From Sulfuricystis multivorans (GTDB lineage: Bacteria; Pseudomonadota; Gammaproteobacteria; Burkholderiales; Rhodocyclaceae), in contig NZ_AP018719.1 in assembly GCF_003966565.1 (NCBI RefSeq), positions 62,001 to 126,000 on the forward strand: a DNA stretch of 64,000 bases, read 5' to 3'. Every line of letters starts with the position of its first letter. Position 1 is the stretch's first letter. The notes below the pieces were generated by a model that was given only the letters and a program-made list of their open reading frames with translations, made no database searches and was not told the origin of the DNA. The position numbers were made by a program, and so were the translations under genes. Positions 20,225-63,987 of this stretch are shown in pieces.

Positions 20225-21289
20225 ATGTCACTTTCCATCACTACCCGTGCGATCGACGTCGGCTACGGCCACATCAAGTTTTCCGACGGCCGCCACCCGA
20301 CGAGCCAAATCATCCGCACCGACTCCATTCCGTCTCAATCTCCCATCGCCAGGCCTAGCGTTAAGCTTGGAGCCGGCGTTATGAAACAGCGGGATACTTT
20401 TCTAGTCCCTGTCGGCGGGCGCCTGTTCGAGGTTGGCCGCGACGTCCATTTGGCCCTCCATGGAAAACAAGAGACCGAGGTTATGGACGAAAACTTTTGC
20501 CTTGGCGATGCCTACGCCGCGAGGCTCTTTGGCGCAATCAACTACATGGTTCCGAACTTGCCAGCCGACGTGATCGATGTCTTGGTCTTGGGTTTGCCAC
20601 TCAATACCTATCGGAAGCATCATGCTGCACTGGCGAAGCGCTTCGTCGGGGAACACGAAATCAATGAGCGTGGTTCCAAGATCCAGATCAAGACCTGCCA
20701 CGTTTATCCTCAACCGCTTGGGAGCTACATGTGCTACCTAGCGACCAACCCCTGCCACGAAAAGGCTCCGTTGGCTCTGTCGATCGACCCTGGCTACAAC
20801 ACTGTCGACTGGTTCGTCTGCCAGGGAATGTCCGCCAACGATTCGTTGAGCGATGCCGTGCCGCGCGGCATGGGCGCTGTGCTTCGCGCAATCGCGGACG
20901 ACATCATCAAAACGCACGGATTTGATGCAACACCCGTGGAACTCGTCCGAGCCATCGATCGTTCCCTCACCACCAAAACACCGTTCGAGCTTTACGGGCA
21001 GCGCTTCGACATCGAGAAGCACCTTGCTGCAGGTGATGACGTGGTGTACGAAGCCGCCCAGGCGATCAAGAACTCAATCGGGTCGGGATCGGATATCAAC
21101 GTGATCATTCTCACCGGCGGCGGAGCTTCGTTTTATGCGAAGGCTATCGCAGAGAAGTTCCCGCGCCATAAGGTCGTGACGCTTGAAGAACCGGCGCTAG
21201 CCAATGTGCGTGGATTCCACATGATCGGCGAAAAGCTGGCGAAGTCGCTTGGGCAGGCACTTAAGATGAGCGCCGTAGCAACAGCATGA
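20225..21289 (+). CDS. parM: ParM/StbA-type plasmid segregation actin
   Basis: ATG at 20225 is chosen (GAGAGG ribosome-binding site, 6-base gap); the start at 20186 is less likely. The 354-residue protein has the actin-fold nucleotide motifs: phosphate-1 AIDVGYGHIKFSDG at the N-terminus, phosphate-2 ALSIDPGYNTVDWFV in the middle and the adenosine motif VIILTGGGASFYAKAI near the C-terminus. ParM/StbA proteins polymerise with ATP and push plasmid copies apart through ParR bound to a centromere. The overlapping ParR-like gene follows and a box array lies upstream, completing a type II partition locus. Confidence 0.87.
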   Translation: MSLSITTRAIDVGYGHIKFSDGRHPTSQIIRTDSIPSQSPIARPSVKLGAGVMKQRDTFLVPVGGRLFEVGRDVHLALHGKQETEVMDENFCLGDAYAARLFGAINYMVPNLPADVIDVLVLGLPLNTYRKHHAALAKRFVGEHEINERGSKIQIKTCHVYPQPLGSYMCYLATNPCHEKAPLALSIDPGYNTVDWFVCQGMSANDSLSDAVPRGMGAVLRAIADDIIKTHGFDATPVELVRAIDRSLTTKTPFELYGQRFDIEKHLAAGDDVVYEAAQAIKNSIGSGSDINVIILTGGGASFYAKAIAEKFPRHKVVTLEEPALANVRGFHMIGEKLAKSLGQALKMSAVATA

Positions 21290-21627
21290 GCGACAAAGAC
21301 GATTCGTCCTTCCGCGTTCATGCGCGCTTCAATCGGGTCGAGTATGCCGACCTGGAAGAGGACCTGAACCGCTATTCACCGGGCGCCGATCGCTCCGGAC
21401 GGATACGCTTTCTGATACGCCTAGGACTGGAAGTTTCCAAAGGGCGGATTCCTTCGCTTCCCACGGAGGAGCAAGCCTGTCCCTCGCAACAAGGCACCCG
21501 AGAGAATACGGAGCAAGCTGCACCCATGGCCGTCTCGCCCAAGCCAATCCATCAGCCAGAACCCGACGATATTCTGGACTCCCTGGGTATTGATCCCGCC
21601 TCGTTTCAATTTGGCAGCCAAACATGA
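21286..21627 (+). CDS. parR: ParR/StbB-like centromere-binding protein
   Basis: The ATG overlaps the parM stop (ATGA). Residues about 8-52 (FRVHARFNRVEYADLEEDLN, SGRIRFLIRLGLEVSKG) form a ribbon-helix-helix with strand, helix, turn and helix in order; the rest is a flexible acidic tail ending DDILDSLGIDPASFQFG. By position it is the adaptor that binds the TGGCGACAC boxes upstream and caps the ParM filament with its C-terminal tail. Sequence similarity to any one ParR is low, as is usual for this family. The stop overlaps the next gene. Confidence 0.7.
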   Translation: MSDKDDSSFRVHARFNRVEYADLEEDLNRYSPGADRSGRIRFLIRLGLEVSKGRIPSLPTEEQACPSQQGTRENTEQAAPMAVSPKPIHQPEPDDILDSLGIDPASFQFGSQT

Positions 21628-22604
21628 AGCTATCGATTGTCGTCCCCTGCTATAACGAGGAAGCCACGATCCCAGTCTTCCTTTCAACAGTCACACCGAT
21701 CGTCCAAAGCACCGGCCTCGATTACGAGATCATTTTTGTGGACGACGGCTCTCGCGACACCACAGTGGCCACCATCGTTGCCCTATCCAACCTCTATTCC
21801 AAGGTGCGACTGGTTGAACTATCACGCAATTTTGGGAAAGAAGCCGCGATGACCGCCGGTTTCTCTTATGCGACGGGGGATGCCATCATCCCAATGGATT
21901 GCGATCTTCAAGATCCGCCAGAATTGATTCCTGAAATGATCGCGAAGTGGAAAGCTGGCTTTAAAGTCGTGCATGCAGTCCGCAGATCCAGACAGACTGA
22001 CACTTGGCTGAAGCGTATCACGGCCAGCGCCTTCTACCGGATGATGGAAGGCATCACCGACGTCGCGATCCCACCCAACTGCGGTGACTACCGGCTCATG
22101 GATCGCACTGTGGTCAATGCCATTCTGTCCTTTCCAGAACGGAACCGATTCATGAAAGGGATCATGGCTGCTGCCGGGTTCAAAGCTACCCAAGTCGAGT
22201 ATGACCGGCCGGAGCGCGCCGCCGGCGAAACTAAGTTCAACTTCTGGAAGCTCTGGAACTTCGCACTCGACGGCATTACCGGATTTTCTACCGTCCCCCT
22301 CCGAATATGGACCTACATCGGCGCCATAGTCGCGCTGTTTTCGTTCTCCTACGCCGGCTGGATCATCATCAAAACCATAGTCTGGGGTGTCGTTACGCCT
22401 GGGTTTGCAACCTTAACCAGCGTCATCCTTTTCCTCGGCGGGATACAGTTGATTGGCATTGGCGTTCTCGGCGAGTACATCGGACGTATCGTGGCAGAAA
22501 CCAAGCGCCGCCCTCTTTTCCTAGTCGGAGCACTGTATGGCTTCGAGGATCGCAACACCGTTGTCCAGCTTGATGCGGCATCTGCTGATCGAGGAGCTCT
22601 TTGA
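21624..22604 (+). CDS. gtrB: GtrB-like family-2 glycosyltransferase (undecaprenyl-phosphate sugar transferase)
   Basis: The 326-residue protein is a GT2/DPM1-type transferase: LSIVVPCYNEEATIPVFLST at the N-terminus, VDDGSRD, the metal-binding DCDLQDPPELI (the GtrB 'DxDLQDP' motif) and a CGDYRLMDR loop. The C-terminus has two transmembrane helices (YIGAIVALFSFSYAGWIII and LTSVILFLGGIQLIGIGVLG). GtrB moves glucose or a similar sugar from UDP-sugar to undecaprenyl phosphate at the cytoplasmic face. The start overlaps the parR stop (ATGA). With the GtrA gene two positions on, it makes a gtr-type surface-modification cassette. Confidence 0.88.
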   Translation: MKLSIVVPCYNEEATIPVFLSTVTPIVQSTGLDYEIIFVDDGSRDTTVATIVALSNLYSKVRLVELSRNFGKEAAMTAGFSYATGDAIIPMDCDLQDPPELIPEMIAKWKAGFKVVHAVRRSRQTDTWLKRITASAFYRMMEGITDVAIPPNCGDYRLMDRTVVNAILSFPERNRFMKGIMAAAGFKATQVEYDRPERAAGETKFNFWKLWNFALDGITGFSTVPLRIWTYIGAIVALFSFSYAGWIIIKTIVWGVVTPGFATLTSVILFLGGIQLIGIGVLGEYIGRIVAETKRRPLFLVGALYGFEDRNTVVQLDAASADRGAL

Positions 22605-53253: not shown

Positions 53254-53778
53254 CTACTGTGAGGGGCTCATGTGAAGCAAGCTCAGGTAATCAAGTCCAG
53301 CTACCTCGAGATCCTTTGTAGGACTGATAGCTGCCAGAAGCTTGATCATCACTGTGCTGGAAGCGACTGGAGTATCACGCTCTCGGATTTGTATCGCGTA
53401 GCGCTTATGGTTGGCAAGGTATCGCATCAAGGGCTCATCGTAGGTCCAGACTGACCAAAGTCCATCCTTGCCCTCAACAGACACGCGAATAGACGAAAGT
53501 GCCTTAGCACTTGCGGCGATTCGCTCGATGAACTTCCTGTGGCTTACTTCATAGCCTAAGAGCAATGTTTCGTCATAGGAAGCAATCGCATCCCGCAGCG
53601 TCTGTTCCGCAAGGTTCTCGCCATTCACGACCAGCCATGGTGACACGAAATAGATGAACTGGAACGCCACATGCTCCAGGGTAGGCCAATCAGTGAACGC
53701 CTTCACCGGGCCGGATGAGAATCCGGCGCTACTTAGAATTCTGTTGAGGCTTAATCTCACGAGGGTGTTAGCGTTCAT
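53254..53778 (-). CDS. Hypothetical protein of the traI-traD operon, 174 residues
   Basis: It overlaps traD by 4 bases and precedes the DUF4400 gene by 10. The sequence has LNRILSSAGFSSGPVKAFTD, FIYFVSPWLVVNGENLAEQT and LKLLAAISPTKDL-like IKLLAAISPTKDLEVAGLDY; it is soluble with no signal peptide. No family recognised, though its position is the one usually taken by a small unnamed gene in SXT-type traID operons. Confidence 0.6.
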   Translation of the reverse strand: MNANTLVRLSLNRILSSAGFSSGPVKAFTDWPTLEHVAFQFIYFVSPWLVVNGENLAEQTLRDAIASYDETLLLGYEVSHRKFIERIAASAKALSSIRVSVEGKDGLWSVWTYDEPLMRYLANHKRYAIQIRERDTPVASSTVMIKLLAAISPTKDLEVAGLDYLSLLHMSPSQ

Positions 53779-55700
53779 GCTTCTTCATGTGAAATGATTG
53801 GCAGACGGCCCTTGATAAGTCTGCCGCCTGAAACCATTGCGATGTATTGCCAGTTTGGCAGTTGCCCAAGTACGTCCGGCGGCAGAACATCTTCCAGAGC
53901 TTCAGTTACTCTCTCCTGTACAGAGCCGGTGAAATGTGTGATCGTCTTTTCTGTCGAAGAAGACGTCGCATGGATCTTCTGTTGCGTATAGACGTAGGTC
54001 TGACCAAAGGTTTCCGTAACGAAATCTTGAGTAACCCTGTCCTTGATTCGCATGGAAACGAGATTATTGAAGTTCCCGAGCATCTGTCTAGCCTTGTCCA
54101 TCGACTCGAACCGCGCAGCCAGGTCAGGAATCGTTTGGATGGCTGCCAGATTGATGAAGCCGGCACCGGCAGACTTGTTCAGCATTTGGATGTACGGATC
54201 GTTGACCACCTCTGCAGCCTCATCGACGATGAGGAATACCTTGTGGTTTCCGCCGTAGTTGTAAAAAGCTGCAGCAACCGAAGTTAGGTCCGATAGCAAC
54301 ATCGAGCCGACCGCAGAGCTGATTGTCTTATTTGCCAACGAATCCAGGCCAATGCTCACTACGCTGTTGGCGCGAATCAGCGAAGCTAGGTCTGTCATCG
54401 GCCGAGTATCTGCAACATCTCGCGGGTCAGGAGAAAGTAGATCTCCGAGCTCTCCGGTAGTGAGCATCCCCAGAATCGGCACAAGGTTTGCAATCATCTT
54501 GGTGTAGTGAGCGCTGTCATGCTTGTAGATGGTTGCCAAGGCCTCAATAGCTTCGTCTCGTATGCCACGCGGAACGATCATGTCCAGATAAAATTCCAGG
54601 AGAAGATTGAGAGACTGACGCACAAGGATCTCGCCATCTTCTTGCCCCTTCTTCCCCTTCACTTGCTTGAGCGTTCGCGCATACGCCGCCACTTCGGTTT
54701 CCCAATTCGGCTGTAGCTCCTCGTCGAAGAACTGAAGAATGACACGCATCAAGAGATCGGCAATCCCGTTGTCCACGTAGGAGCGAATGCGCACAAGTGA
54801 CGGCTTTTCGCCCGTTGCTAGCATGCCCATCACGATGGCGTTCAGCACCCCCCACGCAAAGTCTCGGAAGGAAGAAGACTTGTCCCCACCAGGCATCAGC
54901 GCGGCGATTCGCGATGCCAAGTCGCTTGGATTCGTATAGTTTTTCAATGGATCAATACGGGCGCTCTGCCCAGGGAATGCAAGATGGAATCTGACATAAT
55001 CATGTTCCCGGCCCGCCTGTTTGCACGCCGCACGCAGGGAGGCATCAAAGGGCTGGTCTCCCTTTGGATCAATGCAGATGACGGTGTAGCCAAGTTCGAT
55101 CGCCATTTCAGCAATGAGCTCTAAGAAGCGAGTCTTTCCGCACCGGGTTGTCCCGACCAGGAGGGTGTTACCTATTAAGTTCTGAATTGGCACATACAGA
55201 TCGTCCTCAGATCCATTCAGGCCGTGTATCCACGGGGCGCCAATATATTCAGTAGTATTTGCGCCCACCTGCTCACCGCTCCATTGTTCGATCATCCACA
55301 TGATCATCTTCGGTGGATAGAACTGTTCCGGGTCGGCCCGCTTGATTTCGTACACCCGCTGGGTATGAACCGGGGTCCAGTCGAAGCCCTTCCCAAACCA
55401 AAGCGCCCGCGAGTTTTCCTGCCCTTCTACGCTGGTGACTTTGGTTTTCAGTTCCTCGTCAGTGATGAAGCTGATGCCCTTACCACCCAGACTCCATTTG
55501 AGTCGCCAAATCTCCCATGCCCGAAGTAGGTTGAAGATCATGAAAACAAGAGCAGTCGCCCCAAGGTAGTAGAAGGGAAGGTCAGGGAAAGATGTGGTGT
55601 ACCATGCGTATGTCAGTCCTATCACGCAAAGGAACCACACGGCTGCAGAATAAGCCTCGTAGGCCTTCCGCCACGGCATTTCGAATTGGCGAAGAAGCAT
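53775..55700 (-). CDS. traD: TraD coupling protein (SXT-type VirD4)
   Basis: The 641-residue protein has two N-terminal membrane helices (AVWFLCVIGLTYAWYTTSFP and FYYLGATALVFMIFNLLRAW), a QFYPPKMIMWMIEQWSGEQV region, Walker A LLVGTTRCGKTRFLELIAEM near residue 183 and Walker B KVFLIVDEAAEVVNDPYIQM near residue 493. This is the SXT/R391 TraD subfamily of type IV coupling ATPases. It brings the relaxosome to the channel. Lies 5 bases after traI. Confidence 0.95.
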   Translation of the reverse strand: MLLRQFEMPWRKAYEAYSAAVWFLCVIGLTYAWYTTSFPDLPFYYLGATALVFMIFNLLRAWEIWRLKWSLGGKGISFITDEELKTKVTSVEGQENSRALWFGKGFDWTPVHTQRVYEIKRADPEQFYPPKMIMWMIEQWSGEQVGANTTEYIGAPWIHGLNGSEDDLYVPIQNLIGNTLLVGTTRCGKTRFLELIAEMAIELGYTVICIDPKGDQPFDASLRAACKQAGREHDYVRFHLAFPGQSARIDPLKNYTNPSDLASRIAALMPGGDKSSSFRDFAWGVLNAIVMGMLATGEKPSLVRIRSYVDNGIADLLMRVILQFFDEELQPNWETEVAAYARTLKQVKGKKGQEDGEILVRQSLNLLLEFYLDMIVPRGIRDEAIEALATIYKHDSAHYTKMIANLVPILGMLTTGELGDLLSPDPRDVADTRPMTDLASLIRANSVVSIGLDSLANKTISSAVGSMLLSDLTSVAAAFYNYGGNHKVFLIVDEAAEVVNDPYIQMLNKSAGAGFINLAAIQTIPDLAARFESMDKARQMLGNFNNLVSMRIKDRVTQDFVTETFGQTYVYTQQKIHATSSSTEKTITHFTGSVQERVTEALEDVLPPDVLGQLPNWQYIAMVSGGRLIKGRLPIISHEEA

Positions 55701-55705
55701 ATTTG

Positions 55706-57703
55706 TTATTCCTTGGGGGGGGTCATATCGAAGCCGAGGCTAGAAGCGATCTCTGGCTTCAGAATAATCATTCTGTGCGTCTTCCCATTGATCTCGACTG
55801 GATGAATTCGGCGACTTGCTCTGGTCTTGTCTTGCCAAAGCCACGCCTTCAGGCCAAGCTCTTCGAGAAGTTCCATCACAGGAATTCCGTGCCGGTTTAG
55901 TTCTTCGTGGCTAATTCCAAAGCCGTAAGGCAAAGCTGCAGTCACGCCGCTCATAGTTCCATTGCGATAGGCCTGCATAACCTCATTCAGCAGCCACGCA
56001 TTCGTGCGCTTTAGAGACCCGAGTAGCTTTGCAGCTGTTGGGCTCACGTCAGCTCCAAGCGAGGCGCCGCTGTCGCTTTCCTGATCTGGGTATCGTTGAC
56101 TCTTTGCTTGAACATCTTTCCCGGTGCCGCCATCCTTCTCTTCTTCTGCACTGATCCTGGGTTTCTTACGATTCGAGCTTTTAGGGGTTGCTGTCGCCGG
56201 CAGTTCCTTGTTTCCTTCAGGAAGAGGCTCGTTGCTTTGCACGCGGGACAGAATCTCTGCGGGCGGTGGCGCATTCAGTTCCTGCTTCGGCGCAGTCCAC
56301 AGCTTTTCATTTGCTGTACCGGCCGGAACATCCATTCCTGAAGGAGTATTCAGCGCAGAGGCATGAGCTATCGAAGCCTGCGTTGTACCGTTTGCCGCTG
56401 GAGCTGCTTGCTGATTCGCCTGAACCGTCGAAGTTGGCGAGAGTGCAAGTTGGATGTTCTTGTAAGGTTCGAAGTCGAAGCCCCGGGGGAAGATCACCTC
56501 TCCCTCTCGCAGCTTTACCATGCCCTCCTTCGCCTCGAATGTTCCCGGCAAAGCGATCGTCCAGTACCGAGAGCCGCTTTCGTTCAGCTGAAGAAGATTT
56601 GCGGATACCAGAAGGTCTGCCAAGGTATCCGGGTCTTTCGGGATGCCAGCAAACGAATCTCGAGCCAACAGGTTCGCTATGTCAGACGCTGCGACTGACC
56701 AGTCGATGTAAACGCCTTCCTTCCCCACCCAAAGACGACCACCTGATGCGACGTTGTTTGCGATCCACTTACCTCCTCGGACAAGGCGCCGCATTGCATC
56801 GACCAGGTGCATTTCAAGGTGGGTTCCGATTACCAAGTGCCCATAGTTCGTGGCGGACCGCTTCAAATCGTCCTCGATCACCCGGGTGATCACTGGAGCA
56901 ACCAGTCGACCGATCGGGTTCTCGGATGTATTGGTTTCGACACCAGCGATCGTTGCGGTCATTGCCGGTACTATTTGATTATTGTCGCTGGCGAGATACT
57001 CTAGAACGTCATGGGGGACTACTTGAGAAATTGAATACGCAGATGATGCTTGGGCACCGTGAACGTGCGTATCTTCCATCCAGCGGACAAAATAGACGTC
57101 TGCTTTCGTATTCGTGCACCATTGGAAAAGGGAGTGCAGGAGCGGAGACCACTGTTGGTTGTCCCTCGTCATAACCGCCATCGAATTGACTGTGCGGTAG
57201 TTCTGGCTGCATAGACCTGCTAGGAAGGTGGCCAACGTCCACTTTGGTTGCATGAAAAATCTGCGCTCAACCCCTCCTCCGGTGGGAAAGACTGCTGCAT
57301 TGGCTGATTGCAGCGAATTCAGTGCGATTTCGAGACTCATGCGGAAAAGCCCACCAGTTCCGCGGAAATAGGTAGTGCTCGTTGCCGGTAGTAAATGCAC
57401 GTGCTCCGCCATATTTCGTACGGCCGGCATGTAGAGGCGGTTGAAGTCGGCACGCGAGACGCCGGCGGTGCGGAAGATGCGGTCCAGCAACTCTTGTTGC
57501 GATTGCAGGATTTTCTCTACGGGGATGACAGGTATGCCTTTGTCGAATGGAGGATAGCGTGTTATCGCATAGTCGCCTGGATCCTCTTCGCCCGGATAGA
57601 CGTCCAAGCCGATCCCACGGGACTGGAGTTTCTGCGGGATCAACAATGGAGCAGATTGTTGCGTTGGAGTACGAGTCAGCAGACGGCGGATAAACTTGAG
57701 CAT
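55706..57703 (-). CDS. traI: TraI, MobH-family relaxase-like protein lacking canonical HD residues
   Basis: The 665-residue protein matches the TraI_2/TraI_2_C (MobH) family: YPGEEDPGDYAITRYPPFDK-type opening, MAEHVHLLPATSTT, GGLFRMSLEIALNSLQSANA, QWSPLLHSLFQWCTNTKADV and YFVRWMEDTHVHG, plus a C-terminal domain (LLNEVMQAYRNGTMSGVTAA, MELLEELGLKAWLWQD). In relatives the first blocks read roughly 'HHH...GGLLRHxLEVA' and 'LLHDxGK'. Here TYF (111-113), M122 and LCSQNYR (164-170) stand at those places, so the metal-binding histidines and the HD pair look lost. It either does not nick DNA itself or uses other residues. The start, 33 bp from box 4, has no good ribosome-binding site. Confidence 0.85.
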   Translation of the reverse strand: MLKFIRRLLTRTPTQQSAPLLIPQKLQSRGIGLDVYPGEEDPGDYAITRYPPFDKGIPVIPVEKILQSQQELLDRIFRTAGVSRADFNRLYMPAVRNMAEHVHLLPATSTTYFRGTGGLFRMSLEIALNSLQSANAAVFPTGGGVERRFFMQPKWTLATFLAGLCSQNYRTVNSMAVMTRDNQQWSPLLHSLFQWCTNTKADVYFVRWMEDTHVHGAQASSAYSISQVVPHDVLEYLASDNNQIVPAMTATIAGVETNTSENPIGRLVAPVITRVIEDDLKRSATNYGHLVIGTHLEMHLVDAMRRLVRGGKWIANNVASGGRLWVGKEGVYIDWSVAASDIANLLARDSFAGIPKDPDTLADLLVSANLLQLNESGSRYWTIALPGTFEAKEGMVKLREGEVIFPRGFDFEPYKNIQLALSPTSTVQANQQAAPAANGTTQASIAHASALNTPSGMDVPAGTANEKLWTAPKQELNAPPPAEILSRVQSNEPLPEGNKELPATATPKSSNRKKPRISAEEEKDGGTGKDVQAKSQRYPDQESDSGASLGADVSPTAAKLLGSLKRTNAWLLNEVMQAYRNGTMSGVTAALPYGFGISHEELNRHGIPVMELLEELGLKAWLWQDKTRASRRIHPVEINGKTHRMIILKPEIASSLGFDMTPPKE

Positions 57704-57796: not shown

Positions 57797-58441
57797 TCAA
57801 CCTTCGCAGGCGTGGCGAGATGCCGCAATACGCTCGGAGTTCTCAACCAATCTCTCGTAACGCTTCTGTATTGCGCACATTGGGCACGACTGGTTGTCCA
57901 GCTCCGCTTCGGTGATCACGAGGTAGCTAGCTCCACAATCTGGGCAGTCCTTTAATGTCAGTGACGCATACTTACGCCCATACCCATAGCCAAGGTGAGT
58001 CATCAGATCATAGGCGTTATTCAGTGTGATCCTGGACAATCTGGGAAGAGCTTGCTGGATGGGGTCGGTGAGGCGGTAATACGCCTGGAAGGCCGTGGTA
58101 AGCAACCAACCGCGGTTTGCAGGCTCATCTAAAGCAGCTTCGATCTTGAGGTAGATACTGGCAAATGCAGCAGCTTGTAGATTCCAGTCGAGTCCCCCGC
58201 GATTATGGGGTATCGCATAATGTTTCGGCTGGGCCTGCTGGAGCCTTCCGGCTGGCGCTTCTTGGCCCGTGAGGCGCTTATACCGCTCGGCGATAGCCTT
58301 CGATGATAGGCCAGTGTACCTGGCGATCAGTTTCGGTTTTCCTCCCAACAGGACCATGGTATTCGCAAGGTCCAGGAATCTACTGACCCAGATGGGGTCA
58401 TCGAACTGAGCCGATTCTGGAATGGGGGCGCCTGGATGCAT
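57797..58441 (-). CDS. FlhC-like transcriptional activator subunit (SetC/AcaC-type)
   Basis: The 214-residue protein follows FlhC: a first helical part (SRFLDLANTMVLLGGKPKLI), a HTH-like stretch ARYTGLSSKAIAERYKRLTG with the family's GQEAPAGRL, a helical middle (FQAYYRLTDPIQQ) and a zinc site CPDCG (166-169) with CPMC (186-189). FlhC with FlhD forms the flagellar master activator; SetC/AcaC with SetD/AcaD do the same for conjugation genes in SXT and IncA/C elements. It lies 10 bases after the FlhD-like gene. Confidence 0.9.
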   Translation of the reverse strand: MHPGAPIPESAQFDDPIWVSRFLDLANTMVLLGGKPKLIARYTGLSSKAIAERYKRLTGQEAPAGRLQQAQPKHYAIPHNRGGLDWNLQAAAFASIYLKIEAALDEPANRGWLLTTAFQAYYRLTDPIQQALPRLSRITLNNAYDLMTHLGYGYGRKYASLTLKDCPDCGASYLVITEAELDNQSCPMCAIQKRYERLVENSERIAASRHACEG

Positions 58442-58451
58442 GACGATTTCC

Positions 58452-58904
58452 TTACGCAGCCGCTGCCAACATGGCGGCGGAATAGTGAGGGATAGCCTTC
58501 TGATGCAACGGCCTAATGCTAAGAGTAGCGGCCCCTGATACGTCGAATATTGTTCCTGGCCAGCGACGTGAGATGTCAGAAATTTGCTGGTTTGTCAGCC
58601 GCGCCAAGACGCGCGCTTGTGCCATGTTGATACTCAGAATGATCAGGCCATCGAAGTATCCGCTCAGGACGTCGCGGGCTGTCTGCCGTGCGAACAGCAG
58701 GTATTCCTTGTTGATAGCGGTGACGTCCGGGGGATTTTGGTGATGCGAATGAGCAACAACGGTAGCAACTGTCGAAAGCTCAGATGCCGATGGTTTTAGT
58801 TTCCCAAGGCAGACGGTGAGGAGATTCAGCGTCGAGTGCAAGTTGACATTCGCAGGCCCCATTTGCATCAGGATACGTTTGTTCAAAGCGCGTAAATCGT
58901 CCAT
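58452..58904 (-). CDS. FlhD-like transcriptional activator subunit (SetD/AcaD-type)
   Basis: ATG at 58904 follows GAAGGGTCGCAA, a good ribosome-binding site. The second half matches FlhD: INKEYLLFARQTARDVLSGY, LIILSINMAQARVLARLTNQ and QISDISRRWPGTIFDVSGAA, corresponding to FlhD's 'YLLLAQRLI...LGI...LAALT...VKLAE...CHFR'. The first 60 residues are an extension relative to E. coli FlhD. It is expected to form a hetero-oligomer with the FlhC-like protein. Promoter with a perfect TTGACA upstream (58989-59018). Confidence 0.85.
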   Translation of the reverse strand: MDDLRALNKRILMQMGPANVNLHSTLNLLTVCLGKLKPSASELSTVATVVAHSHHQNPPDVTAINKEYLLFARQTARDVLSGYFDGLIILSINMAQARVLARLTNQQISDISRRWPGTIFDVSGAATLSIRPLHQKAIPHYSAAMLAAAA

Positions 58905-58978: not shown

Positions 58979-59063
58979 CGTATTGCGGATTATTGTGAGG
59001 TGCGCCATACTTTGTCAAGAGATATTTTCCGTGTAACGGAGTTTTTGTTTCCGTAATGCGGAG
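58979..59063 (-). promoter_or_regulatory. Promoter and operator candidates of the FlhDC-like operon
   Basis: On the minus strand a perfect -35 TTGACA (59013-59018) is 18 bp from AATAAT (58989-58994). Three related palindromes surround it: TCCGTGTAACGGA (59028-59040), TTCCGTAATGCGGA (59049-59062) and, over the -10, the TCCGCAATACG form (58979-58989). Such spacing suggests a repressor or autoregulation. The rest of the 440-base divergent region holds the response regulator promoter and nothing else recognisable. Confidence 0.6.
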
Positions 59064-59344: not shown

Positions 59345-60004
59345 GTGCCGATTCGAGTATTTCTGGCGGATGATCACCGCCTACTGGTGGAGGGTTTCCG
59401 CCATGCCCTCAAGGACTACGACATCGATGTCGTGGAGGTTGCTTACAACCTTGATGGTTTGATTTCCCGTTACCTCGAGGTGAAACCCGATGTACTCGTC
59501 ATTGATGTCCGGTTTGACCGCAAGAGCGCGTCCGAGACTGGGCTAGATGTATGTGAGGAGCTTCTTGCTACGCACCCTGACGCGAAGATCATCGTCTTCT
59601 CTCAGTTCGACGACCAGTACATCATCGAGAAAGCCTATAAGATCGGAGTCCTGTCCTTCGTCCTGAAGGACGAAAGCATCGATGTCCTGAATCAAGCTAT
59701 CCGTACTGTCGCCGAAGGCAATGAGTTCTTTTCACCTAAAGTCGCACAACTACTTGCCCGATCCTCGGTAAAAGACCGGAATCCCACCAAGCTTCTCGAA
59801 GAGAAAGAACTTCGCGCATTCTTGCTGACTGCAGACGGAGCTTCTCTTGCTGACGTCGCCGAAACAATGGATCTGTCAACCAAGACCGTGGGCCATCTGC
59901 TGAAGAGCATCAAGTCCAAACTTGACATTGAGACGCAGGCTGATTTCACCAAGCTCGCGATTAGGTTCGGGCTTACTACGACCGAGTTGAAAACGAAAAA
60001 GTAA
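59345..60004 (+). CDS. NarL/LuxR-family response regulator
   Basis: GTG at 59345 begins MPIRVFLADDHRLLVEGFRH. The receiver domain has acidic residues D9-D10, phosphoacceptor D54 (VLVIDVRFD) and K108 (SFVLKDES). The C-terminal HTH (DGASLADVAETMDLSTKTVG, HLLKSIKSKLDIETQADF) is LuxR-like. No good ribosome-binding site precedes the GTG. It is convergent with, and overlaps by 29 bases, the histidine kinase gene, an unusual arrangement for a partner pair. Likely target genes include neighbours or the transfer activator. Confidence 0.88.
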   Translation: MPIRVFLADDHRLLVEGFRHALKDYDIDVVEVAYNLDGLISRYLEVKPDVLVIDVRFDRKSASETGLDVCEELLATHPDAKIIVFSQFDDQYIIEKAYKIGVLSFVLKDESIDVLNQAIRTVAEGNEFFSPKVAQLLARSSVKDRNPTKLLEEKELRAFLLTADGASLADVAETMDLSTKTVGHLLKSIKSKLDIETQADFTKLAIRFGLTTTELKTKK

Positions 60005-60920
60005 CCCGCGTTCCTGGGTGTTGAGCATTATCGGGGAACGCCGGTTGAATATTGAGATTTCCGCCGATCGCCCGGGCTCGCTCACGCATGTCGATAAGGC
60101 CAATGCCAGCGGGAATCCCTGCAGGCGTTTTGGCTCTTGACTTCAACCCTACCCCATCATCGGTAATCATGACTTCGATGAGGCGCTTCCGTTCATTCAA
60201 CTTCATGGATACAGAGATCTGCTTGGCATTGGAGTGCTTGATGGCATTGTAGATGGATTCACGGATGATTTTGTACGCCGTAATAGCAACTTCTTCATTG
60301 ATCTCCGGCCGTTTTGGTAGGTTGTGTTCCAAAACAATCTCGGGCTTATCGAAGAAATTGGTGTAGTGTGAGATCAAGGACTCAATCGCCACCGTAAAGC
60401 CTATCGAGTCGATCATTTCGATCCGAGCGCTCTTGATGATGTTACGTGTCTGGGAATAGGCATCTGCCAAGAGTTCCTGGATGGACGTAAGAATTTTGCT
60501 AGCTTCCGGATTGTCCTGGACGTAAGGCGCAAGGCGATTCAGTTCGTTTTTACAAAGCACAAGATTGGGATTTACATCGTCATGGAGGCGCCGAGAAATC
60601 ATCCGGCGCTCTTCGTCGATACGGCGATTCAGTTCCGCGAGAACGCGCCTGGTCTCCTCGTGTGAGACGTCGGTCTGGACGTTACTTTGTATATTTTCCA
60701 GGATGGACACATATAGCAGAAAGACTAAGGCCAGCACGGCTGGAAGGCTGGAAATGATATTCGATTTGATTGTGAATGGGAGCAAAACAACTAGGAACGC
60801 GGCCCATGTCCATAGAAAATATTTGGCCGTTAAGTTACCCCTAAATGCAAGGATCAGGTTGACAACGAAAGCCACCAACAGGAAAACGCAGATTGTTAGA
60901 AAGACGAAGCTTTCATCCAT
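59976..60920 (-). CDS. NarX-type sensor histidine kinase (HisKA_3)
   Basis: Three N-terminal hydrophobic segments (FLTICVFLLVAFVVNLIL, WTWAAFLVVLLPFTI and AVLALVFLLYVSIL) lack any sizeable periplasmic domain, so input probably comes from within the membrane or from a partner. The dimerisation helix has DEERRMISRRLHDDVNPNLV with phosphoacceptor H113, then an ATPase with RESIYNAIKHSNAKQIS (N box) and DDGVGL and GIGLIDMRERARAIGG (G boxes). It lies 26 bases after the DUF1805 gene in a three-gene operon and is the obvious partner of the convergent response regulator. Confidence 0.9.
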   Translation of the reverse strand: MDESFVFLTICVFLLVAFVVNLILAFRGNLTAKYFLWTWAAFLVVLLPFTIKSNIISSLPAVLALVFLLYVSILENIQSNVQTDVSHEETRRVLAELNRRIDEERRMISRRLHDDVNPNLVLCKNELNRLAPYVQDNPEASKILTSIQELLADAYSQTRNIIKSARIEMIDSIGFTVAIESLISHYTNFFDKPEIVLEHNLPKRPEINEEVAITAYKIIRESIYNAIKHSNAKQISVSMKLNERKRLIEVMITDDGVGLKSRAKTPAGIPAGIGLIDMRERARAIGGNLNIQPAFPDNAQHPGTRVTFSFSTRS

Positions 60921-60946
60921 GATGCGCCCATGCGCGCAGCTGCTGC

Positions 60947-61201
60947 TTACCGAAATCTGGCTAGGGCAGATTCGCCGGTGTCGCCCACCTTGATGCCCAT
61001 GGCTTCTGCTGCTTTGGAAACGGCAACGATCGAAGCTTTTTTCATATCCTCGAAGTCATTTACCCCAGATACGATGGCGCAGGCTTCTTCCGTCTTGTTG
61101 CAAGTTTCCGGATTGATATAGCCGCATGCCAGGAACCCTTTCGTCCCTTTCATCAATAGCAGTGGTCGCTTCAGCTCAAATCTCAGTGTCTCAATGCTCA
61201 T
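60947..61201 (-). CDS. DUF1805 (YunC-like) protein
   Basis: The 84-residue protein has LLLMKGTKGFLACGYINPET, CAIVSGVNDFEDMKKASIVA and AAEAMGIKVGDTGESALARF, the DUF1805/YunC pattern ('KGxxxCGxL...AxxVxGVxxxxxMLxA...A..xGIxxGMxGxEAL'). Ribosome-binding site GAGAGGTGGCAA precedes the ATG. The family's role is unknown. Its position between a PAS protein and a kinase suggests a ligand-binding or signalling accessory. Confidence 0.8.
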   Translation of the reverse strand: MSIETLRFELKRPLLLMKGTKGFLACGYINPETCNKTEEACAIVSGVNDFEDMKKASIVAVSKAAEAMGIKVGDTGESALARFR

Positions 61202-61236
61202 TTGCCACCTCTCAGAAATGCTATGTGGGAGAAACT

Positions 61237-62088
61237 TTAACTGCGTTTCTTGCTCTTCTGGATCATCTCGACAATCGTCTCGTTCTCGTTGATAGCCTTA
61301 AAGGCCTCAATGAATCGAGCTATAGCTGCAGGATCTTTTCCGTCCATCTTCGAGATATCGATGTTGAGGCAGATGAAGCCAATGAGTCCATAGGTGTTGT
61401 TGAAAAGCGGGATAGTCGTCGACTTGACCTGTCTTCCATCCTTCAAAGTCAATCCATAACTGACAAAAGACTGGCCAGTACCCCGTTCGATTTGGCTGTA
61501 GTTCTTGATCAACTGAATTCCGAAGTTGGTGTTAGGATCTCCTAGTCGCCGGCCGGAAATGGGGTTTTGAATGGCAACGATTGAATTCAGCGGATTGCGG
61601 GTATCGTGGAGAACGATTTCGATCGGCGTACCCGCAAAGGTCTGACCGATTCCATTCACGATGTCCTTATAGGTCTGGAGAAGCCTATCTTTCTGTACAT
61701 CCGCTTCTGCCACTGCAGCGTAATCCGGCAAGTTGCTGAGACTGATGTATTTGGACCTGGCAGACTCGCTGAGCATTAGCGTCACATGGTTGGAGTTACC
61801 AAGATAGATGAGGTCCGCGATCTCCCGAGGAGAAGGGTTGGCCGTGAAATAATCTATGGCCTTCTCGAAAAGATGCCTGTCGAGGTAGATCGCTCCAGTT
61901 TCATCGGCTCGAATTGGGTAGAACTGTTCGTAGGCTGCTAGTGGCTTGCCTGGAAGCACTCGGGCTTCTTCAATTATCTTCGGACGGAGGCTGAGCGCAT
62001 AGACGCTTAATGAGGCGATCAGTAGCGCTGGCACCACCACTGACATCAATGTCTTGAGATTTAGAGAGAATAAACCGCGCTGACTCAT
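61237..62088 (-). CDS. Membrane-anchored YheO-type PAS protein
   Basis: A membrane helix near the N-terminus (LMSVVVPALLIASLSVYALS) precedes a roughly 100-residue region that looks extracytoplasmic. The PAS_6/YheO domain follows (about residues 130-245): TPIEIVLHDTRNPLNSIVAI, QNPISGRRLGDPNTNFGIQL and VKSTTIPLFNNTYGLIGFIC. In regulators such as DauR this domain sits before a HTH; here no HTH is present. It begins the operon with the DUF1805 and kinase genes, so it may be the sensor feeding the kinase. Confidence 0.75.
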   Translation of the reverse strand: MSQRGLFSLNLKTLMSVVVPALLIASLSVYALSLRPKIIEEARVLPGKPLAAYEQFYPIRADETGAIYLDRHLFEKAIDYFTANPSPREIADLIYLGNSNHVTLMLSESARSKYISLSNLPDYAAVAEADVQKDRLLQTYKDIVNGIGQTFAGTPIEIVLHDTRNPLNSIVAIQNPISGRRLGDPNTNFGIQLIKNYSQIERGTGQSFVSYGLTLKDGRQVKSTTIPLFNNTYGLIGFICLNIDISKMDGKDPAAIARFIEAFKAINENETIVEMIQKSKKRS

Positions 62089-63129: not shown

Positions 63130-63987
63130 CTAGTGCACGCGGTGGTGGTCTTTAAAAGCCGCCTTAACCAACTTCACCATCGAGGCTGACAGCTCCCCGA
63201 TGTCTTTGATGGTTGCAGCGTACCTGGAATCAAACACCTGCGAGGTGTCCACGCCGATGCCGAGCCCGACAACAGTGATACCATCTGCTCGAGTGCGATC
63301 GATGATGTACTTCGTGGCCTCGCGGTCATCCGGATCGCCGTCGGTGACGACCATCACGATTTTCAGCGTTTCCTCACGTCGCACAATATCGGAAGCAGCG
63401 AACAAGATGGCTTCCGCCATCGGAGTTCCGCCGTCTGTGGAGAGGCTTGCAACTCTGCCTGCCAGCTGCTTAGGACTTTCGTCCCAACGCTTGATCACGG
63501 CTACCCCTTCATCGCGATTTTCGCCATACCAAGGGAAGACCGTAACCTGCGTCTTCAATCCTGGTACGTCGAACGCCAGCATCGTGGCTACGGCTGCTTG
63601 CACAGCATCACTAATGGCATAGATCATGGAGCCAGATCGGTCGATGACGATTGATACCGCTGCATTGATGTCGATACCTTCATCCTCACGGCAAAAGATT
63701 GCACCACCGAAACGGCCTTGCCAGATGCGCGAAGAATCGATCTGCATCCCAGACCGGGAATACGAGACCTCTCCTTCAGCAACCGAAGACATCCACTGCA
63801 GCGTCCTGGTACGGATTGCATTGACGCTGGCGCGGAGTTGCGCCATATCAACGGGAACCGCACCGAGGTGCGCCTTGTGGACGTTGGGCATCAGCACATG
63901 GATGCCATCGCCTTCGGCATTTGCCGCGGCGTTGATGGCGTTTTGAAGCATCTCGCCCATATCCTCTTCCACGTCCTGATCGGACAT
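63130..63987 (-). CDS. CobT-like von Willebrand factor A protein, possibly extending past the right edge
   Basis: The VWA domain has MIDAS motif SIVIDRSGSMIYAISDAVQA, then STDGGTPMAEAILFAASDIV and KIVMVVTDGDPDDREATKYI. This pattern matches the CobT C-terminal domain. CobT works with the AAA+ protein CobS as a cobaltochelatase in cobalamin synthesis, but plasmids and ICEs of the SXT/IncA/C type carry a CobS-CobT-like pair of unknown job. The ATG at 63987 is possible, but the frame stays open to the window edge, and CobT proteins are usually much longer, so the gene may start outside. Confidence 0.75.
   Translation of the reverse strand: MSDQDVEEDMGEMLQNAINAAANAEGDGIHVLMPNVHKAHLGAVPVDMAQLRASVNAIRTRTLQWMSSVAEGEVSYSRSGMQIDSSRIWQGRFGGAIFCREDEGIDINAAVSIVIDRSGSMIYAISDAVQAAVATMLAFDVPGLKTQVTVFPWYGENRDEGVAVIKRWDESPKQLAGRVASLSTDGGTPMAEAILFAASDIVRREETLKIVMVVTDGDPDDREATKYIIDRTRADGITVVGLGIGVDTSQVFDSRYAATIKDIGELSASMVKLVKAAFKDHHRVH

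Follow-up and report, generated by a model that had tools for sequence, protein, structure and literature searches.

A module of four genes at positions 59345-62088 of the Sulfuricystis multivorans DNA analysed here (a stretch of 64,000 nucleotides, hereafter the window) is likely to be a mobile signalling cassette, in which a PAS–DUF1805 sensor, a kinase with three transmembrane (TM) segments and a response regulator (RR) switch the adjacent transfer promoter. The RR gene on the + strand faces a PAS_6–DUF1805–HisKA_3 kinase operon on the − strand (59976-62088). The RR and histidine kinase (HK) genes are convergent and lie tail to tail with a 29-bp overlap. Gene coordinates and layout are exactly those of the original prediction:

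59345-60004, + strand: response regulator of the NarL/LuxR type; D54 is invariant in relatives
59976-60920, − strand: HisKA_3 sensor kinase with three TM segments and short loops; the phospho-acceptor H113 is invariant, and the 3′ end shares 29 bp with the RR gene
60947-61201, − strand: DUF1805 protein, 84 aa, without signal peptide; Cys 26, 34 and 41 are invariant in module relatives
61237-62088, − strand: membrane PAS_6 (YheO-like) protein without HTH; TM 11-33, helical domain ~50-118, PAS fold ~131-250

The contig carrying the window is 149,340 bp long, in a genome of 2.81 Mb in three contigs, and we read it as a plasmid. Upstream of the RR gene lies a divergent FlhDC-like operon, which heads a MOBH/MPF_F transfer region:

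58452-58904, − strand: leading gene of the FlhDC-like operon; only its position makes it FlhD-like, and it has no Pfam match
57797-58441, − strand: FlhC-like transcriptional activator subunit, matched by FlhC profiles just below their cut-offs
55706-57703, − strand: MobH relaxase (TraI_2)
53775-55700, − strand: TraD coupling protein
27843-53243, − strand: remaining MPF_F transfer region, TraG to DUF4400, syntenic with the Azospira plasmid pAZI09

When the DUF1805 protein was used as a tblastn query against 72,556 plasmid records, 12 matched, and all 12 are conjugative and carry the other three genes as well. The conservation of the four genes together in relatives, on which the original prediction was to be judged, was therefore found, in these 12 plasmid records, in genome contigs and in one further genome; such recurrence is far above chance. 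Eleven of the 12 records are of the pAOVO01 kind (pALIDE201, pRK1-4, pYAZ2, pMSMB0852 and others), and those that we read were typed MOBF/MPF_F. The twelfth is pAZI09, a MOBH plasmid with the same FlhDC-like neighbour, in which the PAS gene is split from the DUF1805 gene by an ISL3-type transposase gene and restriction-modification genes. Host genera of module plasmids include Acidovorax, Alicycliphilus, Cupriavidus, Comamonas, Diaphorobacter and Aromatoleum; one paper lists pAOVO01-family plasmids without going further (PMC6357080). Plasmid pI of Denitratisoma has two copies of the module plus tra region in one linear record (L002 and L008), one copy with a split RR gene and the other with split TraL/TraE/TraB genes. 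The window and pAZI09 also have in common a PRTRC-type protein D gene with a glycosyltransferase gene after it (window 20225-22601), and each has a gene for a VWA-domain protein near the module: a CobT_C-like one at 63130-63987 in the window, and one near the PAS gene in pAZI09.

In the MOBF plasmids the RR gene and the tra operon diverge, and the PAS gene adjoins the mobF end. With either class of relaxase, the transfer region is headed by the divergent operon, despite the differing gene content. Between the window and pAOVO01, the RR is 73% identical, the HK 56%, the DUF1805 protein 61% and the PAS protein 66%. Most matching transfer proteins are only 31-55% identical, several of them over partial length, and the MobF relaxase and TraD gave no meaningful match in this comparison. 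Because the module proteins (56-73%) are more alike than the transfer proteins (31-55%), the module either moved as a cassette or has been under much stricter conservation than the transfer machinery.

The FlhC-like protein falls slightly short of the curated thresholds (NCBIfam FlhC 1.9e-7, below the cut-off; Pfam FlhC 26.0 bits against a cut-off of 27); its pAZI09 counterpart is annotated as FlhC family, and it has a weak DUF2857 match, as described for BisC. Among plasmids it was found only in pAZI09, and no FlhDC gene is annotated beside the module in the 11 pAOVO01-kind plasmids. The suggestion that the module borders an FlhDC-like operon and may control transfer thus stands in part: it adjoins that operon here, and control of transfer is very probable, but the link to FlhDC is not general, being without annotated counterpart in 11 of the 12 plasmid relatives.

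The RR (219 aa, GTG start) matches Response_reg above the Pfam cut-off (2.4e-16) and the GerE/LuxR HTH slightly below it (1.1e-4). The HK matches both HisKA_3 (2e-8) and HATPase_c (2.4e-8) above cut-off. H113, the ATPase domain and D54 are all conserved, and by these residues and profiles the two proteins are predicted to form a two-component pair. That the kinase would have almost no periplasmic part was borne out: three TM segments are predicted, with very short loops between them. Like intramembrane-sensing kinases, those examined have a short N-terminal TM region that lacks a sensory domain, and all kinases encoded beside this PAS protein have three TM segments.

The PAS_6 match of the membrane protein is clear (1.1e-25, 90.2 bits against a cut-off of 27). 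No Pfam HTH profile matched it; it has instead one N-terminal TM helix, as the original reading of a membrane YheO-PAS protein without HTH had it. Its structural model has this single helix and an extra helical domain ahead of the PAS fold. Compared with experimental PAS structures the model scores Z ~9, and the fold is related to many ligand-binding PAS domains; from the fold, the cue may be a small molecule. Sensing by a separate subunit had been proposed, and the PAS protein is most likely that sensor, given a kinase without an input domain of its own and the strict linkage of the PAS gene to it. Since the three-TM region is all that the HK has before its catalytic part, and a region of the same kind stands in front of a different kinase type in Marinobacter and behind the fused sensor in Moritella, the PAS protein is likely to be the input, coupled through the membrane. 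On which side the PAS domain lies is read differently from different members: the three-TM Phycisphaerae form and the DUF1805 proteins with signal peptides favour the outside, the leaderless plasmid DUF1805 proteins favour the inside, and the charges flanking the TM helix in the plasmid PAS proteins point to neither.

The intergenic regions beside the RR gene contain 15-bp inverted repeats that resemble TTCCG-N5-CGGAA, their consensus, and form pairs with a 22-bp spacing. The window has two predicted sites of this kind, which lie directly upstream of the −35 element of the FlhDC-like operon and ~280 bp from the RR start:

59027-59041, unstranded: predicted RR site 1, TTCCGTGTAACGGAG, resembling TTCCG-N5-CGGAA
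59049-59063, unstranded: predicted RR site 2, TTCCGTAATGCGGAG, 22 bp from site 1
58989-59018, − strand: predicted sigma-70 promoter of the FlhDC-like operon (TTGACA, 18 nt, AATAAT; 11/12 consensus)

TTCC-N7-GGAA is invariant in an alignment of eight MOBF intergenic regions. Single sites reached their observed score in ~0.1-2% of shuffles in most regions and in 17-19% in two, the consensus having been picked by eye in the same regions that were later scored, L043 (see below) excepted. Pairs were more telling. Over eight intergenic regions, spacing 22 gave the top summed pair score (129; next 116). No other spacing beat it in five of the regions; in the other three a longer one (40 or 45) scored higher. 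The observed pair was reached by none of 4000 shuffles for the window, pAZI09, L043 and Denitratisoma, by 1 of 4000 for M. rhizoxinica and by 10 of 4000 for pAOVO01. L043, a region fetched after the sites had been defined, has two 9/10 sites exactly 22 bp apart, which is the best out-of-sample support for the predicted sites. A 23-column weight matrix of the MOBF sites was rejected as a pointer to the flhD promoter; it was not specific, with site 1 only third in the 64-kb window, and the 22-bp pairing rather than the single-site matrix was the informative feature. Between the RR sites and the RR gene, every MOBF module checked, and likewise L043, has an identical 13-bp element, TTTCTGTCAAAAT (for example L004:8878-8890 and L043:10872-10884), which the window lacks; it is possibly an RR promoter element or the site of another regulator.

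From these features we infer the following order of events. The membrane-anchored PAS_6 protein, helped by the DUF1805 protein, would detect a cue, and the two would contact the TM region of the kinase, a protein with three membrane helices but without its own input domain. This kinase would phosphorylate the convergent NarL-type RR, and the RR would then bind the two inverted repeats in the intergenic region that separates its gene from the divergent operon, altering transcription of that operon. The target would be the operon running from the flhD-like and flhC-like genes through mobH and traD onward in the window, and the tra operon itself in the MOBF plasmids. Our preference is that binding activates, because the predicted sites lie upstream of the −35 element in the window; NarL-type regulators bound there usually activate. 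The same parts could work with the opposite sign, the RR repressing transfer at rest until the cue relieves it, or vice versa. With 11 of 12 consensus positions the flhD-side promoter might work without an activator, and inspection of the alignment places the MOBF plasmid site near predicted divergent promoters, but the usual activator position of the window sites makes repression rather unlikely.

The DUF1805 protein is well above its Pfam cut-off (1.6e-17, 64 bits against 29.5), and Foldseek relates its fold to 1qw2 (6.3e-4). The three Cys are kept in the DUF1805 proteins of all module members. No upstream start or hidden signal peptide was found for the window protein. A translational fusion with the PAS protein by frameshift was considered and dropped, as relatives do not share the open upstream stretch that the DUF1805 frame has in the window. 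The DUF1805 proteins of Herbaspirillum (L020) and of genome G635 (L031) have a predicted signal peptide and those of the plasmids have none. The G635 protein is solitary (L031:8501-8824, on the 663-kb contig C17), with the same three Cys and neither a PAS nor a module kinase gene nearby.

The DUF1805 protein had been expected to be a further accessory of the system. It is tightly linked, and a PAS–DUF1805 fusion exists, but it is not strictly essential, as its gene is a pseudogene in Marinobacter loci that keep the PAS and kinase genes. This loss, and the lone G635 relative with its signal peptide and three Cys, would also fit a separate enzyme or a metal or redox protein that makes or modifies the PAS cue and is no part of the sensor. 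We consider this unlikely in the face of the fusion of DUF1805 to the PAS domain in Moritella and of the order PAS–DUF1805–HK, which is kept in all intact modules seen.

A genome scan with a PAS alignment and profile searches yielded distant forms of the module from two contigs and from Moritella. RR–PAS–DUF1805–HK is colinear and complete in two contigs, one from a proteobacterial MAG (L019, with DUF1173 and ParA/ParB-like genes nearby) and one from Herbaspirillum (L020). In Moritella a single ORF fuses PAS to DUF1805; the ORF immediately after it (L026:1679-2188) likewise has three TM segments, and its soluble domain has no Pfam match. Marinobacter has conjugative MOBH plasmids that encode the PAS protein and a hybrid kinase, a different kinase type preceded by the same kind of three-TM region. 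Several related Marinobacter loci have in common a decayed DUF1805 remnant between these two genes (L021:8712-8976). The Mycetohabitans plasmids (L006 and L011) have kept the RR and lost PAS and DUF1805 together with TM1-2 of the kinase, leaving one TM segment. In genome G1337 (L043), which came from an order-level survey, all four genes are on a 4.2-Mb contig beside a serine recombinase gene, with no tra genes in the 18.5 kb read; the module can thus occur apart from a transfer region. The form with DUF1805 is rare, being present in 2 of 398 genomes of a phylum sample (the window's own included) and in 3 of 399 of an order sample, one of these a weak match with stops; no module relatives were found in viral contigs.

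It is improbable that the module regulates itself or host genes, adjoins transfer genes only as co-carried backbone and uses the sites for RR autoregulation: the chromosomal L043 module keeps the 22-bp site pair without tra genes, and the distant Herbaspirillum module (L020) lies beside a branched-chain amino-acid-type ABC transporter, but the divergent operon is always the transfer-region head in both relaxase classes, and the window sites abut the promoter facing the FlhDC-like operon, well away from the RR start. Beyond the transfer switch that we favour, a wider proposal is that the module is a self-contained sensory cassette, equipped with a 22-bp-spaced operator, that passes between plasmids whose relaxases are unrelated and serves them as an interchangeable transfer switch, and that PAS/DUF1805 is a general input for different three-TM outputs (the HisKA_3 kinase, the hybrid kinase and the Moritella protein). 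This double claim is plausible but tentative, and we stop a little short of calling it probable.

Single elements of this arrangement are known. On Agrobacterium Ti plasmids, VirA/VirG with the accessory ChvE is a plasmid two-component system that controls a type IV secretion system and has a separate sensing protein. VirA, however, has large input domains, and ChvE is a sugar-binding protein, not a PAS or DUF1805 protein. AcaCD and SetCD are FlhDC-like transfer activators on mobile elements. The Ti two-component system controls transfer genes, and RteA/RteB is a further transfer-controlling two-component system on a mobile element (PMC1976400). As proposed here, the RteA/RteB regulator acts on an element-borne activator gene, rteC, which controls transfer genes; that system is induced with tetracycline and belongs to another element class, and a separate PAS or DUF1805 subunit is not described there. 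The mobile element ICEclc encodes BisDC, which is FlhDC-like and activates transfer genes (PMC7423338); the BisDC paper names no two-component system, whereas the window has one divergent from the activator genes.

A parallel to the kinase is LiaFSR, where a kinase without its own extracytoplasmic sensor depends on a membrane partner (PMC7492735, PMC3543457). LiaFSR responds to envelope stress in Gram-positive bacteria, its accessory membrane protein is not of the PAS_6 family, and the module kinase differs in having three TM segments. LiaS has two. Campylobacter Cj1387c (YheO type) belongs to the same PAS_6 family (PMC4519771), but proteins of its type are PAS-HTH transcription factors, whereas the module protein is membrane-anchored, without HTH and encoded beside a kinase. 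YunC and TA1206 (PDB 1qw2) have the DUF1805 family and fold in common with the module protein; TA1206 has no Cys at positions 34 and 41, where module members invariably have one.

The original prediction knew of no described system with this set of genes. In the open-access literature searched there is essentially nothing on DUF1805 proteins, and we found no paper on a DUF1805 kinase system or on the four-gene set, nor any account of a sensor composed in this way or of its being shared by plasmids whose relaxases are unrelated. Two-component control of transfer, FlhDC-like activators and accessory-dependent kinases are already known; this composition and its sharing appear to be new, no description of either having been found.

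For environmental plasmids, little is known of what sets the timing of transfer, and descriptions of plasmid-encoded two-component switches are few. The module places DUF1805 proteins in a biological context and PAS_6 domains in a role beyond HTH regulators. Being small and conserved, with predicted operators, it makes the transfer cue of its host plasmids testable, and the plasmids of the endofungal symbiont Mycetohabitans offer a natural test of a signal-blind version. In its host plasmids, the module is the probable determinant of when transfer to another cell takes place.
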